This document shows, one piece after another, positions 6,679-41,398 of a stretch of DNA of 64,000 nucleotides. Under the pieces are notes generated by a model. The model saw nothing but the letters and a program-made list of their open reading frames with translations, did no database searches and was not told the DNA's origin. This stretch comes from Mycolicibacterium chubuense NBB4 (GTDB lineage: Bacteria > Actinomycetota > Actinomycetes > Mycobacteriales > Mycobacteriaceae). The stretch lies in NCBI RefSeq assembly GCF_000266905.1, contig NC_018022.1:372001-436000 (forward strand), read 5' to 3'. How positions within the stretch are numbered: position 1 is the stretch's first letter; each line of letters starts with the position of its first letter. A program made the position numbers and the translations under genes.

Positions 6679-6697
6679 CTACGCACTTGGTACGTAG
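6679..6697. promoter_or_regulatory. BlaI-type operator upstream of ldt
   Basis: CTACG-N9-CGTAG, a perfect 5-9-5 palindrome, 73 bases upstream of the L,D-transpeptidase start at 6606. It fits the window-wide consensus TAC(T/G)-N9-(A/C)GTA. Confidence 0.7.
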
Positions 6698-6748
6698 ATG
6701 AACAGCGGTCGGCGGGCTGGGCCCGTTACCCCGACGACCGTGGGTCCG

Positions 6749-8002
6749 TCAGACGGTGGTGTTACCGGTCCGCCACTGTTCCCAGGGCACGTTCCAGTCG
6801 CCGAGCCCGTCGGTCCCCGGGAGGGTCGATCCCACCGTGTTCACCACTTCGACGATGTCGCCGCGTTTGGTGTTGTCGTAGAACCACTTCGCGTTCTCGG
6901 GACTGACGTTGAGGCAGCCGTGGCTGACGTTGGTGTTGCCCTGGCTACCGACCGACCAGGGTGCGGAGTGGACGTAGATGCCGCTGTAGGACATCTGGGT
7001 GGCCCAGTCGACGTCGAGGCGATATCCGTTGGGGGAGTTGACGGGGACACCGTACGTCGAGGAGTCCATGACGAGGTTGGCGTATCTGTCGCCGATGATG
7101 TAGGCGCCGTTGTCGGTGGGGGTGCTGTTCTTGCCCATCGACATCGGCATGGTCTTGACCACCTCGCCGTTGCGCCGCACCGTCAACGTCTTGGTGGCGT
7201 CGTCGGCGGTGGCGATGACCTGGTCGCCGATGGTGAACCGCGTTGTGACGCTGTCCTGTCCGAACAATCCGTCACCTAGGTCTACGCCGTAGGTGTTCAC
7301 CGCGACCTCGACGGAGGTGCCCGGTGTCCAGTACTGCGCTGGGCGCCAACGGACTTCGCGGGCGCTGAGCCAGTAGAACGCCCCCTCGACGCGGGGGGTC
7401 GTGGTGACGTCGATGGCTCGCTGTGCAGCCGCGCGGTCGGTGATGTCCTCGTCGAAGCGGATGGCCACCGGCTGCCCCACTCCCACGACGTCACCGTCGT
7501 TGGGCATCACGTAGGGCATCGTCAGGTTCTGTGGTGACTGAGTCTGAAACGTCATGCGCTGGGTGACCACTCCGGCGAGTCCGAGTGCCTCGGCGGTCAA
7601 GGTGTAGCGCTTGTTGTAACCCAGTGGTTCGGCGGTGGACCACGTCACGCCGTCCGGACCGAGCTGCCCGGCGATGGTCTCGCCGTCGGCATTGATCATC
7701 TCGACCGCGCCCAGGACGCCGTCGCCGGCGGCCACGGTCACCGGCGCATCCACGGGGACCCCGACGGCGCCGTCGGTCACCGACGACCGCAACCAGGGCT
7801 CCAGCAGATCGGCATAGGGCTCTCCCTTATCGGCGATGGCCGCGGGCGTCTGCGCCGTCGTGGTGACCGCCGGACTCGCGCAGGCCGCGACGGCGAGCGC
7901 CGACGCGACCAGCACGACGATCGCCGCAGGAAAACGCCAGCTTCGGTTCGGCGCGAGTTCGCGAGTCGGTCGCGGTTGCACTGACGTGCGGTCGGTCGGC
8001 AA
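6749..8002 (-). CDS. ldtB: L,D-transpeptidase, LdtMt2 (LdtB) type lipoprotein
   Basis: About 417 residues from a TTG at 8002 that has GAAAGG upstream; a GTG at 8068 is an alternative without a ribosome site. A lipobox (AVAACAS) is followed by two Ig-like domains and the YkuD domain with YVHSAPWSVGSQG and NVSHGCLNVSPENAKWFYD. Long stretches are close to LdtMt2 of M. tuberculosis as I recall it (ADKGEPYADLLEPWL, TMPYVMPNDGDVVGVG, MDSSTYGVPVNSPNGYR). It forms 3-3 cross-links that confer carbapenem-sensitive, penicillin-tolerant wall synthesis. A putative response-regulator box (8096-8116) and imperfect BlaI-type sites (8179-8215) lie upstream. Confidence 0.9.
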   Translation of the reverse strand: MPTDRTSVQPRPTRELAPNRSWRFPAAIVVLVASALAVAACASPAVTTTAQTPAAIADKGEPYADLLEPWLRSSVTDGAVGVPVDAPVTVAAGDGVLGAVEMINADGETIAGQLGPDGVTWSTAEPLGYNKRYTLTAEALGLAGVVTQRMTFQTQSPQNLTMPYVMPNDGDVVGVGQPVAIRFDEDITDRAAAQRAIDVTTTPRVEGAFYWLSAREVRWRPAQYWTPGTSVEVAVNTYGVDLGDGLFGQDSVTTRFTIGDQVIATADDATKTLTVRRNGEVVKTMPMSMGKNSTPTDNGAYIIGDRYANLVMDSSTYGVPVNSPNGYRLDVDWATQMSYSGIYVHSAPWSVGSQGNTNVSHGCLNVSPENAKWFYDNTKRGDIVEVVNTVGSTLPGTDGLGDWNVPWEQWRTGNTTV

Positions 8003-8095
8003 GGAACCAGCCTTTCGGAGACGCTCGGATTGCCAGCGCGGCGACGCTGCTGCAGTCTCCAGTGTCACGGGGTCGAGTATGGGCGGCTTGGCCCT

Positions 8096-8116
8096 TCGAT
8101 GAAGATTCGGTAAAGA
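8096..8116 (-). promoter_or_regulatory. Putative response-regulator box upstream of ldtB
   Basis: On the minus strand: TCTTTACCGAATCTTCATCG. It closely resembles sites at 9410-9429 and 12222-12240. All three stand upstream of genes near the two-component system at 10295-12183. The site reads in the direction of ldtB, about 95 bases before its start. Confidence 0.5.
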
Positions 8117-8178
8117 CGGTCGCCGCTCGGTCGGTCATGCGGCGGTCACGTAGACAAGTCCGTTGCCGTTTCGTAACG

Positions 8179-8215
8179 TAGTCGCGATCTACGTAGTAGT
8201 TACAGAGTTAGTAGC
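8179..8215. promoter_or_regulatory. Imperfect tandem BlaI-type sites between ldtB and ripC-like gene
   Basis: GTAGT-N9-CGTAG (8179) and GTAGT-N9-AGTAG (8197) each miss the consensus by one base. The CTACGTAG core is also present. The location between two divergent cell-wall genes and the spacing match the other operators. Confidence 0.45.
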
Positions 8216-8261
8216 AATCGACGTGTGATCGGTTCACTCGCGACGCGAAGGGTCATCTGCT

Positions 8262-39780: not shown

Positions 39781-39836
39781 GGGACGCTCCTCATCAGGAC
39801 GCCGGTCGATCCGACGTCTACCCGGTGTCGACGTCA

Positions 39837-39855
39837 ATACTAACAAGCTACGTAG
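39837..39855. promoter_or_regulatory. BlaI-type operator of blaI copy 3
   Basis: ATACT-N9-CGTAG, 5-9-5 form, 57 bases before the TTG start at 39780. Confidence 0.7.
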
Positions 39856-39935
39856 TGCGCGACCGTGTATCGACGACGCCTCGGGCCGGTGCTCGCCGTT
39901 CGGGCGGGCGTGAACGCCGCGAGGCGGTGGCGCGG

Positions 39936-40724
39936 TCAGACGGGGAGCACCGCGTTGGAGACGAACGCGTCACGCACCCATGCCACGAAGTCGCCCCAGA
40001 GCCCGGTGATGAGCGCCGCGCCCACGATGATCATCAGCGTCCCGCCGATCAGCTGAACGGTGCGGGCGTGTCGACGCAGCAGGCCCAGTCCCCGCATGGC
40101 GCGAGCGGAACCGAAGGCCAGAACGACGAAGGGCAAACCCAGGCCGAGACAGTAAGCGGCCACTAGGAGCATTCCGCGGGTGACGCTGGAGCCGTCGGTC
40201 GCCGAAGCGACGGCGACGACGCCGGTCAGGGTGGGGCCCAGACAAGGCGTCCAACCCAGTCCGAACACCGCCCCGAGCAGCGGTGCCCCAGCCAGGGTGG
40301 TGACCTGTCGTGGTGCGAAGCGGATGTCGCGCTGCAGTAACGGGAGGACTCCGACGAACACCAGTCCCATCACGATGGTCACCGCCCCGCCCAGGCGTTG
40401 CAGCAGCACCTGATTGCCGAGCAGGGTGGTCGTCATTCCGAAGACCGCCAGAGTGCCCAGCATGAACACCGCACTGAATCCGGCGACGAACAACGCCGCC
40501 GCCCCGGCGACTCGGAACCGGGGCGACGGTGTACCGCTCGCAGGAGCCGAACCAGGACCGGCCGAGCGCTGCTCGACACCGACCAGCGCCGCCAGGTAGG
40601 ACAGGTAGCCCGGTACCAGCGGCACGACGCACGGCGAGGCGAACGAGACCGATCCCGCGACCATGCTCAACGCCATGGCCAGGATCAGCGGGCCCGTGGC
40701 GGCGAACTGCCCGAGGCCGTTCAC
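39936..40724 (-). CDS. ccdA: CcdA-type thiol electron transporter
   Basis: 262 residues, six helices, from a GTG overlapping the TlpA-like gene. Redox Cys residues stand in VSFASPCVVPLVPGYLSYL and GLGWTPCLGPTLTG, the two hallmarks of CcdA/DsbD. It passes electrons from cytoplasmic thioredoxin across the membrane to exported thioredoxins such as the TlpA-like protein encoded just before it, which then reduce apocytochrome c. Matches Rv0527 in gene order (Rv0526-Rv0527). Confidence 0.92.
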   Translation of the reverse strand: MNGLGQFAATGPLILAMALSMVAGSVSFASPCVVPLVPGYLSYLAALVGVEQRSAGPGSAPASGTPSPRFRVAGAAALFVAGFSAVFMLGTLAVFGMTTTLLGNQVLLQRLGGAVTIVMGLVFVGVLPLLQRDIRFAPRQVTTLAGAPLLGAVFGLGWTPCLGPTLTGVVAVASATDGSSVTRGMLLVAAYCLGLGLPFVVLAFGSARAMRGLGLLRRHARTVQLIGGTLMIIVGAALITGLWGDFVAWVRDAFVSNAVLPV

Positions 40725-41335
40725 GATCCGGCCGGCGGCTCGTCGGCGAGGCGCTCGACGAGCGGTTGCAGGTCGTCGGCCAGAAGTGCACGCAGGAACA
40801 CCGCCGCGACGCGGTGGCGGCGATCCAGCACGATCGTCGACGGGACCACACTGGTCGGATATCTGCCGCCGAACGCGATGAGGGTGCGCATGGCGGGGTC
40901 GTAGATGGACGGGTAGGTGATGCGGCGATCGGTGACGAAGTCGACGGCGGTCTGTATCTCGTTGTCGCGCACGTCGATACCGACCACGGTGACACCCCGC
41001 GCGCGATTATCCTGGTAGATCTTCTGCAGCTCGGGAGCCTCGGTGCGGCACGGCGCGCACCACTGCCCCCACACGTTGATGATCACCACCTGCCCGGCGA
41101 AGTCGGTGTCGACGCTGAGGGTGCGGGCCGGAGCGGCCAGGTCCGGCCCCGCGATCGCCCCCGGTCGGCCACGCTGGTCCGGCTGGTCGTAAAGGATGTC
41201 GGTTCGTCCGCCGGGGGAGACGAAGTCGAAGGAGCCGCCTTGAGTGACGGCACCGCTGCCGGTGGAGCACCCCGCCGCGGCCGCGATCGCCGCGACCAGC
41301 ACGCTGCACACGACGACGCGACCACGTGCTCTCAT
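40721..41335 (-). CDS. TlpA/ResA-type exported thioredoxin lipoprotein
   Basis: 204 residues from the ATG at 41335. Lipobox AAAGCS in the signal, then a thioredoxin domain with INVWGQWCAPCRTEAPELQ, VVGIDVRDNEIQTAVDF and cis-Pro loop TSVVPSTIVLDRRHRVAA. Reduces disulfides of apocytochrome c or other exported thiol proteins with electrons from CcdA (four-base overlap). A decayed relative of this gene lies at 1231-1427. Operator 41380-41398 is 45 bases upstream. Confidence 0.92.
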   Translation of the reverse strand: MRARGRVVVCSVLVAAIAAAAGCSTGSGAVTQGGSFDFVSPGGRTDILYDQPDQRGRPGAIAGPDLAAPARTLSVDTDFAGQVVIINVWGQWCAPCRTEAPELQKIYQDNRARGVTVVGIDVRDNEIQTAVDFVTDRRITYPSIYDPAMRTLIAFGGRYPTSVVPSTIVLDRRHRVAAVFLRALLADDLQPLVERLADEPPAGS

Positions 41336-41379
41336 TCCGGCTCCCAACGTCGCCCGACCATTGACTGCGTATCTGAACA

Positions 41380-41398
41380 GTACTACCTGCAATAGTAG
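41380..41398. promoter_or_regulatory. BlaI-type operator of tlpA-ccdA
   Basis: GTACT-N9-AGTAG, 5-9-5 palindrome, 45 bases before the leftward start at 41335. A wider CTACC...GGTAG inverted repeat overlaps it. Confidence 0.75.

Follow-up and report, generated by a model that had tools for sequence, protein, structure and literature searches.

Among the closest described relatives of the system treated here is the BlaI repressor of Mycobacterium tuberculosis, which we take to be Rv1846c and the protein of structure 2g9w; its regulon, as described by Sala in 2009, reportedly comprises five loci. The names Rv1846c, Rv1845c and Rv1303 are presumed to apply here from 2g9w similarity and gene order. 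The DNA upstream of the atp operon is bound by tuberculosis BlaI in electrophoretic mobility shift assays (PMC12565901, in excerpt), and signal detection by the sensor-less BlaR1 homologue of this species is stated to be unclear (PMC9834060, in excerpt). The window analysed here, a 64,000-nucleotide stretch of Mycolicibacterium chubuense NBB4 (C1:372001-436000 of a 6.34-Mb genome on three contigs), covers a copper-gene island of about 50 kb that carries 16 copies of a 17-bp dyad. We consider it probable that these dyads are the BlaI operators of the island; sensor-less M56-type proteases would remove BlaI from them on copper or thiol stress. The sequences argue strongly for the BlaI regulon, and the signal is put forward as a testable proposal. 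The envelope regulon likely run here by a known repressor family is unusually large and compact, has operator letters of its own and is apparently mobile. A literature search among open-licence papers returned none on the island regulon or on the protease cysteine pair described below.

Number, spacing and placement of the dyads

The pattern TACK-N9-MGTA has 16 matches within 34.7 kb of the window, all found where an earlier note on this DNA had placed them (its starts lie 0 or 1 base before TAC). The note had described them as exact 5-9-5 palindromes spread window-wide. They are rather 4-9-4 dyads, TAC(T/G)-N9-(A/C)GTA, with an outer base that is mostly C or G and not always paired, and they are confined to 6680-41397, ending before the copper ATPases. 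With the spacing varied from 3 to 24, N9 gave the 16 matches and every other spacing 0-6; the 6 matches at N24 arise because tandem pairs lie 15 bp apart. The chance count per window was 0.67 (standard deviation 0.83, maximum 4 in 100 runs) under a third-order Markov model and 0.43 (maximum 3 across 100) in dinucleotide shuffles. Genome-wide there are 109 matches, and the 93 outside the window, one per ~67 kb, are as many as chance predicts. In its strict form, TACT-N9-AGTA, the motif occurs 24 times in the genome, 10 of these in the window.

By a simple gene caller all 16 sites are intergenic, as had been claimed, albeit this caller leaves 35% of loci noncoding and slightly over-counts intergenic matches at every spacing (16/16 at spacing 8). 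A predicted start follows 15 of the 16 at a distance of 23-117 bp, which bears out the description "mostly close to starts"; the exception is the orphan at 24966. Outside the window, 22 of 26 sampled sites (of the 93; 24 loci) were coding and 4 intergenic, and the 14 strict sites comprised 13 coding ones and a single intergenic one, for which no start was called within 300 bp. The same genome was sampled in 28 control stretches of 20 kb (560 kb), which gave 8 matches, none intergenic (0/8), and two chromosomal blaI stretches, chosen on purpose, held 4 intergenic sites. Equal frequency of the motif in coding DNA elsewhere, named earlier as an argument against a regulon, was not found. It is hardly conceivable that the dyads are a chance or compositional artefact. 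One of the 16, the orphan, has no gene and coding DNA is rich in TAC/GTA words, but the spacing controls, the Markov and shuffle models, the intergenic placement and, as given below, the recurrence across species and the substitution data all contradict it.

Three tandem pairs, 15 bp apart with AGTACT in common, stand at 20827/20842, 26704/26719 and 38925/38940. This exact tandem form was present in 19/401 genomes of a family sample, the own genome included, where several unsorted matches look coding or repetitive.

Conservation in a second genome

The island is common to two mycobacterial genomes. In the second one (G260) it lies on a 5.64-Mb contig, with 95-97% identity over most of window positions ~3570-53312 and 90-91% at 21.8-24.4 kb, and the flanks do not match in the same order. 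The core half-sites differ at 1/122 bases (T to G, with the motif preserved), the 9-bp spacers at 8/144 and the near flanks at 75/971, against a background of 617/8622 (7.2%) in other noncoding DNA and 1217/39905 in coding DNA. In Fisher tests the core differed from other noncoding DNA with p 0.0013 and from the spacers with p 0.03. Apart from the 16 sites, near-misses at 39260, 41628 and 50407 of the window have exact N9 sites at the apparently matching places of G260 (2944141, 2948223 and 2957007).

Recurrence in related loci

Relatives were sampled by similarity to the BlaI-2 protein of the window alone, taking the best 80 of 260 relatives. These 80 loci hold 369 N9 sites, compared with 12-45 (median 24) at most of the other spacings between 0 and 39; the higher counts at N1, N2, N5, N13, N16 and N24 are at least partly pieces of nested arrays. 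The rise of TACK/MGTA pairs at spacings 1, 2, 5 and 13 (loci L016-L095) hints at half-sites arranged in nested arrays, for example TACTATCTACGTACGTAGACAGTA. When the window and two plasmid loci are included, 393/420 N9 sites are intergenic, compared with 229/372 for the sum of 17 other listed spacings (without N16 and N24). A motif-blind search upstream of blaI ranked the dyad first, and it lies within 250 bp of blaI in 44/80 loci, with 14/14 for Nocardia (two alike).

Target genes were counted by similarity to the window proteins, genes with like upstream DNA being collapsed. Sites recur at relatives of the BlaI-3 group (20/28), BlaI-2 (17/34), RipB (17/30), the first L,D-transpeptidase gene ldt1 (8/15), the small membrane protein (6/7), MerT-like/DUF2752 proteins (6/7), ldt3 (5/12), Lnt (4/5), the odd MtrA-like response regulator (4/6), the deacetylase (4/10), the antigen 85-like esterase (3/4) and Lgt (2/2). 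Lower counts were obtained for the OmpR-type response regulator (2/19), M56-2 (1/27), TlpA-b (1/5), M23 (1/4) and CcsB (1/3), with CtaD at 1/1. No site was found at relatives of Cu-ATPase-1 (0/17), DUF305 (0/17), CysK-like (0/14), the major facilitator superfamily (MFS) protein (0/11), the histidine kinase (0/11), M56-1 (0/8), the ripC-like gene (0/7), TlpA-a (0/6), ldt2 (0/5) or BlaI-1 (0/5), nor at the 3 or 4 relatives each of the 489-residue membrane protein, CcdA, TetR, CsoR and the gene at 43255. Among other genes of the relative loci, 40/670 have a site. The many site-less neighbours in the same loci act as an internal control. The recurrence of the dyads at blaI promoters of relatives, at two of the three chromosomal blaI genes of the own genome and at orthologous envelope genes gives good support to an envelope and respiration regulon of BlaI type.

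The repressors that may read the dyads

Three window proteins pass the curated PF03965 cut-off of 22.6 bits: BlaI-1 (16665..17084, plus strand, 78.8 bits), BlaI-2 (18362..18751, plus, 87.4 bits) and BlaI-3 (39403..39780, minus, 77.1 bits), the last with 2g9w as its nearest solved structure. The genes of BlaI-1 and BlaI-2 overlap those of the proteases M56-1 and M56-2 by 4 bp each. BlaI-3 is encoded behind a site of its own, and blaI-1, perhaps also blaI-2, belongs to the predicted operon headed by site 14138, which would make the circuit autoregulated. Direct autoregulation of blaI-2 was rejected, as the 375 bp upstream hold no N9 site. A GCACCTG...CAGGTGC dyad before this gene is only partly kept in the closest relatives.

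The own chromosome offers a comparison, with two BlaI-M56 pairs that have 17-bp sites and a third without. Upstream of the 2g9w orthologue, TACGACGCGCGGTAGTA lies 82 bp from the domain start; the second chromosomal blaI has TACTATCGCGCTACGTA at -72 and the third has none. A further ten tuberculosis-type blaI genes, each from a different genome, invariably have TACGAC-N5-GTAGTA, between -51 and -69 relative to the estimated start, so that this form is found at 11/11 promoters of the type. The DNA before the atp operon contains TACGACAAAAAGTAGTA, which overlaps the end of the preceding called gene and lies 265-322 bp before the two possible first-gene starts. C occupies position 6 in 4/32 island half-sites and in 22/22 tuberculosis-type half-sites, the latter being one gene across species and not 22 independent events. 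Because position 6 differs, the island BlaI likely has a specificity of its own.

That the dyads are read by BlaI is very probable from this evidence. The chromosomal tuberculosis-type BlaI, rather than the island proteins, might run the operators, as the 17-bp geometry is the same. This is very unlikely, given the position-6 difference and the recognition helices, AYTT(I/V)MTVLQRL against AYTTVMSTMDNL. Other regulators encoded in the window, such as the MtrA-like response regulator, the two-component system, TetR and CsoR, are very unlikely to bind the dyads: the MtrA-like gene lies behind a site, as do 4/6 of its relatives (OmpR-type 2/19), but the dyad also stands at Nocardia and chromosomal blaI promoters, where those regulators are not the shared element, and histidine kinase, TetR and CsoR relatives have no site (0/11, 0/3, 0/3). 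OmpR-type regulators, moreover, usually bind direct repeats.

The earlier note had three BlaI and two M56 proteins run one circuit, which is too simple: the recognition helix is the same in BlaI-2 and BlaI-3 (AYTTVMSTMDNLHTKGWL) but differs in BlaI-1 (AYTTVMTVMDNLHRKGWL), and a fourth BlaI-M56 pair (C1:369954-371308), 0.7-2 kb left of the window, has its own operator class, with the perfect 24-bp palindrome TACTATCTCGGTACCGAGATAGTA upstream. Near copies of this second, N16 class lie at 147..170 and, by a DUF1942 gene, at 2086..2109. In the 80 loci TACT-N16-AGTA is raised to 54, against 0-14 at other spacings apart from N9, partly via nested arrays. The own genome likely has, judged by these motifs, at least three BlaI operator classes. 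The classical TACA-N2-TGTA operator has 0 matches in the window and 3 in the 80 loci, a count that falls in the range of the other spacings (0-6). Of the BlaI-type regulon proposed earlier, the envelope and respiration part is well supported and the single circuit is not, and the motif is not the classical operator.

Sensor-less proteases with a cysteine pair

M56-1 (17081..17986, plus; HERAH, Cys62 and Cys298) and M56-2 (18748..19686, plus; HEWAH, Cys75 and Cys311) owe their name to annotated relatives and a structure model. Against PF05569 (Peptidase M56, cut-off 31 bits) M56-1 scores 20.1 bits and M56-2 has no match, and both pass PF01435 (M48). The model aligns with the membrane and protease part of BlaR1, albeit Foldseek alone gave no match below E 0.001. 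No Pfam match to a penicillin-binding sensor domain was obtained in either protein (301 and 312 residues), and both end after the fourth long helix. Penicillin sensing is unlikely, since the sensor domain is missing.

Two cysteines, predicted to be extracytoplasmic, are present in 89/96 related proteases examined, and both are absent from the tuberculosis-type proteases (0/11). The new element predicted from sequence and model is that the paired M56-type proteases carry a conserved cysteine pair instead of a penicillin sensor. One of them, in the second membrane loop, and the other, at the C-terminal tip, may together form an extracytoplasmic switch in place of the penicillin-sensor domain of BlaR1. 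Removal of BlaI by the protease is quite probable. Loss of both cysteines from the tuberculosis-type pair would imply a different or second-hand input there.

Copper, thiols or the cell wall as the signal

The targets are mostly extracytoplasmic and many are cysteine-dependent: SHGC in the L,D-transpeptidases, DCS in NlpC/P60, CAPC in TlpA, Cys32 and Cys161 in the CcdA-like protein. A further lgt and a further lnt lie on the chromosome, together with nine further YkuD genes and three full-length COX1-family genes, which makes the island set a second one. L,D-transpeptidases are carbapenem targets in mycobacteria. Copper is an inhibitor of these enzymes in vitro, and in several species it reduces LD-crosslinks (PMC11390936); it also impairs lipoprotein acylation (PMC6538781). 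Both effects are documented for other bacteria and, in the excerpts of these sources, for no mycobacterium. Relatives of six window copper proteins occur in 45/63 BlaI loci of at least 18 kb, compared with 2/20 evenly spaced chromosomal stretches. A chromosomal cousin locus (L156:6900-17800) combines blaI-M56, a DsbD-like protein, a DsbA-like thioredoxin, an L,D-transpeptidase, an extracytoplasmic function (ECF) sigma factor, which we take to be SigC-like, and a copper-type P-ATPase; its N9 sites lie upstream of blaI and in the thioredoxin/L,D-transpeptidase divergent region. In the window, the multicopper oxidase, the DUF305 and two-component genes, and the copper ATPases with CsoR (43-49 kb) have no sites; the adjoining ATPases and multicopper oxidase are likely under other control.

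We propose that dimers of BlaI-2 and BlaI-3 bind the dyads and repress the genes behind them. Copper or thiol stress at the envelope would reach the conserved cysteine pair of the protease, predicted to lie outside the membrane, and the protease would cleave BlaI as BlaR1 does in Staphylococcus. Derepression would yield a replacement extracytoplasmic set of L,D-transpeptidases, Lgt, Lnt, RipB, CcsB, TlpA/CcdA and, if its gene is intact, CtaD. The weakest step is the signal, and its entry as copper or thiol stress through the cysteines is held tentatively. Slightly more tentative is the wider reading in which the BlaI-M56 pairs of actinobacteria sense copper or thiols rather than penicillin and, on the copper islands of mycobacteria, their cysteine switch commands a complete replacement kit of copper-vulnerable envelope enzymes.

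Several observations sit uneasily with this proposal. BlaI-3 has no protease gene adjoining its own, and blaI-2 lacks an N9 site. In 36/80 blaI genes the upstream 250 bp hold no N9 site, and operon position explains only part of them, because just 7 of these 36 have a same-strand called gene ending within 150 bp upstream. Only 3 of 20 other Actinomycetes loci have an N9 site before blaI, and a shared dyad sought before blaI in these 20 loci was not found. Some copper-side relatives do have a site (multicopper oxidase 5/29, CopZ-like 2/10, Cu-ATPase-2 1/10), and rpf had no scored relative in the 80 loci. One of the two cysteines is missing in 7/96 proteases, and the Cys75 loop is modelled at low confidence (block pLDDT 48-65). 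No copper-gene relative was present in 18/63 of the loci of at least 18 kb, and one was present in 1/14 Nocardia loci. SigC, the presumed type of the sigma factor at the chromosomal cousin locus, is tied to copper shortage, not excess (PMC7924339, in excerpt). Site number correlates with copper-gene number at a Spearman coefficient of 0.24 (p 0.057) and with envelope genes at 0.62. Since copper-gene number hardly tracks the sites and 13/14 Nocardia loci are without copper genes, the signal may exceed copper and include thiol or envelope stress.

Two candidate explanatory factors were discarded: copper-gene number is a weak predictor of site number, and the recognition helix does not explain why 36/80 blaI genes lack their own site. 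A BlaI tree (few columns, long branches) was used for no claims.

The same correlations fit the view that the regulon answers to cell-wall damage, by beta-lactams or muropeptides, and that the copper genes are there just as neighbours on a plasmid. Peptidoglycan enzymes make up many of the targets, the MtrA-like regulator fits a wall programme, one relative locus (L059) has a beta-lactamase-like gene behind a site, and tuberculosis BlaI is linked to beta-lactamase control (excerpts of PMC9834060 and PMC8265638). We nonetheless regard this view as unlikely: the two proteases have no penicillin-sensor domain, their cysteine pair is an improbable beta-lactam site, wall crosslinking is not the task of lgt, lnt, ccsB, tlpA/ccdA or ctaD, and copper-gene relatives stand in 45/63 BlaI loci, as against 2/20 chromosomal stretches.

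The cysteine pair, with its contrast to the tuberculosis type (89/96 vs 0/11), provides two residues to test for signal detection. If the copper/thiol proposal is true, metal resistance of the island gains a second arm beyond export and oxidation, namely the renewal of copper-poisoned envelope enzymes, L,D-transpeptidases among them. The operator code at position 6 would, in addition, separate island from chromosomal BlaI regulons by sequence.

Genes behind the individual operators

The 16 sites precede about twelve predicted transcription units: ldt1, ccsB, lnt, an rpf-like gene, the deacetylase, ripB, ctaD, blaI-3, tlpA-ccdA and three longer ones. Operators were scored with a profile trained without the window. 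The operator at 6680..6696, identical in G260, lies 28 bp before ldt1 (5614..6651, minus; Pfam Big_10 and YkuD L,D-transpeptidase domains, SHGC motif). A candidate weaker operator, TACG-N16-AGTA at 8190..8213 (profile score 15.3 at 8197), stands between ldt2 and the ripC-like gene, and relatives of these two genes have no N9 site (0/5 and 0/7). The site at 14138..14154 has the top profile score of the window, 28.6, and lies 52 bp before ldt3 (14207..15466, plus; Big_10 and YkuD, SHGC). It heads the predicted unit ldt3-membrane protein-tlpA-blaI-1-M56-1, followed after a 375-bp gap by blaI-2-M56-2; the TlpA-like thioredoxin of this unit (16042..16668, plus) has the motif CAPC.

The operator at 20713..20729 lies 30 bp before ccsB (19702..20682, minus; cytochrome c assembly protein, PF01578). 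On its other side, the tandem pair at 20827..20858, with AGTACT shared, precedes a four-gene unit (20907..24419, plus) of a small membrane protein (20907-21203), an antigen 85-like esterase (21309-22316), lgt (22390-23325) and an M23 peptidase (23322-24419). No gene of the window stands behind the orphan operator at 24966..24982. G260 has ~1.5 kb more at 24424-24982, and its matching operator is followed 90 bp downstream by a small PAS-like gene (with PAS matches below curated cut-offs), and the orphan therefore looks like the scar of a lost target. The tandem operators at 26704..26735 precede lnt (25025..26680, minus; apolipoprotein N-acyltransferase, PF20154 and PF00795), and 27369..27385, which has one T-to-G half-site change in G260 and is still within the motif, precedes the rpf-like transglycosylase gene (26778..27302, minus; PF06737).

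Further along, operators at 30907..30923 and 32669..32685 precede a polysaccharide deacetylase gene (30963..31838, plus; PF01522) and ripB (31886..32719, minus; NlpC/P60-like, PF00877; start likely 32557), respectively. The operator at 32899..32915 precedes the third longer unit, an MtrA-like regulator gene with a methyltransferase gene. The regulator (32923..33741, plus) is nearest MtrA, with 150.5 bits in the NCBIfam MtrA model (cut-off 300). Its receiver appears degenerate, with one acidic residue and the conserved lysine missing in a comparison by eye with the canonical regulator at 11431-12183. Tandem operators at 38925..38956 precede ctaD (37322..38822, minus; cytochrome oxidase subunit I), which had been named as a target and is a broken copy in the window: COX1 profile positions 112-185 are missing and the C-terminal part is in another frame, while G260 has an intact ctaD of 581 residues at the same place. 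The operator at 39838..39854 precedes blaI-3, and that at 41381..41397 the genes of TlpA-b (40721-41311) and a CcdA-like protein (39936-40724; Cys32, Cys161), together 39936..41311, minus; the CcdA-like name rests on gene order and weak NCBIfam matches, with no Pfam match.

Within the 14-39 kb stretch, some part of which was matched by 134 of 72,556 plasmid records, one or both of the MFS and cysteine synthase-like genes (27761-30123) were named in at least 16 of the first 20 plasmid matches. Relatives of these MFS and CysK-like genes have no N9 site (0/11, 0/14).

Relation to known systems

Suppressor-of-copper-sensitivity (Scs) systems have been described in proteobacteria, and we know of no BlaI-M56 control of them. 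They share with locus L156 a DsbD-like membrane protein and a DsbA-like thioredoxin by copper genes. CopY/TcrY repressors belong to the same superfamily and have copper surroundings, but their operator differs, the window BlaI proteins score 31-32 bits in TIGR02698 against a cut-off of 121.95, and, as all three are without any cysteine, they have no CXC metal site. BlaI_0696 of Clostridium thermocellum also has a 17-bp dyad, inverted GTCTAT five bases apart, by DNA affinity purification sequencing; its half-site letters differ and the excerpt of the source gives two intergenic peaks only (PMC8457756). With the staphylococcal BlaR1-BlaI and MecR1-MecI systems the island shares a Penicillinase_R repressor gene directly before a membrane metalloprotease gene, but it has neither the penicillin-binding sensor nor the TACA-N2-TGTA operator, and no beta-lactamase is among the annotated genes behind the 16 sites. 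M. tuberculosis BlaI is of the same fold family (2g9w nearest BlaI-3, E 1.7e-17), with a 17-bp dyad, bounded by TAC and GTA, before orthologous blaI genes and close to the mycobacterial atp operon, likely autoregulation and a sensor-less protease partner. It differs in the C at position 6, in the absence of the cysteine pair from 11 tuberculosis-type proteases and in having a handful of loci, compared with 16 operators in 35 kb here, whose targets are second copies of envelope enzymes.

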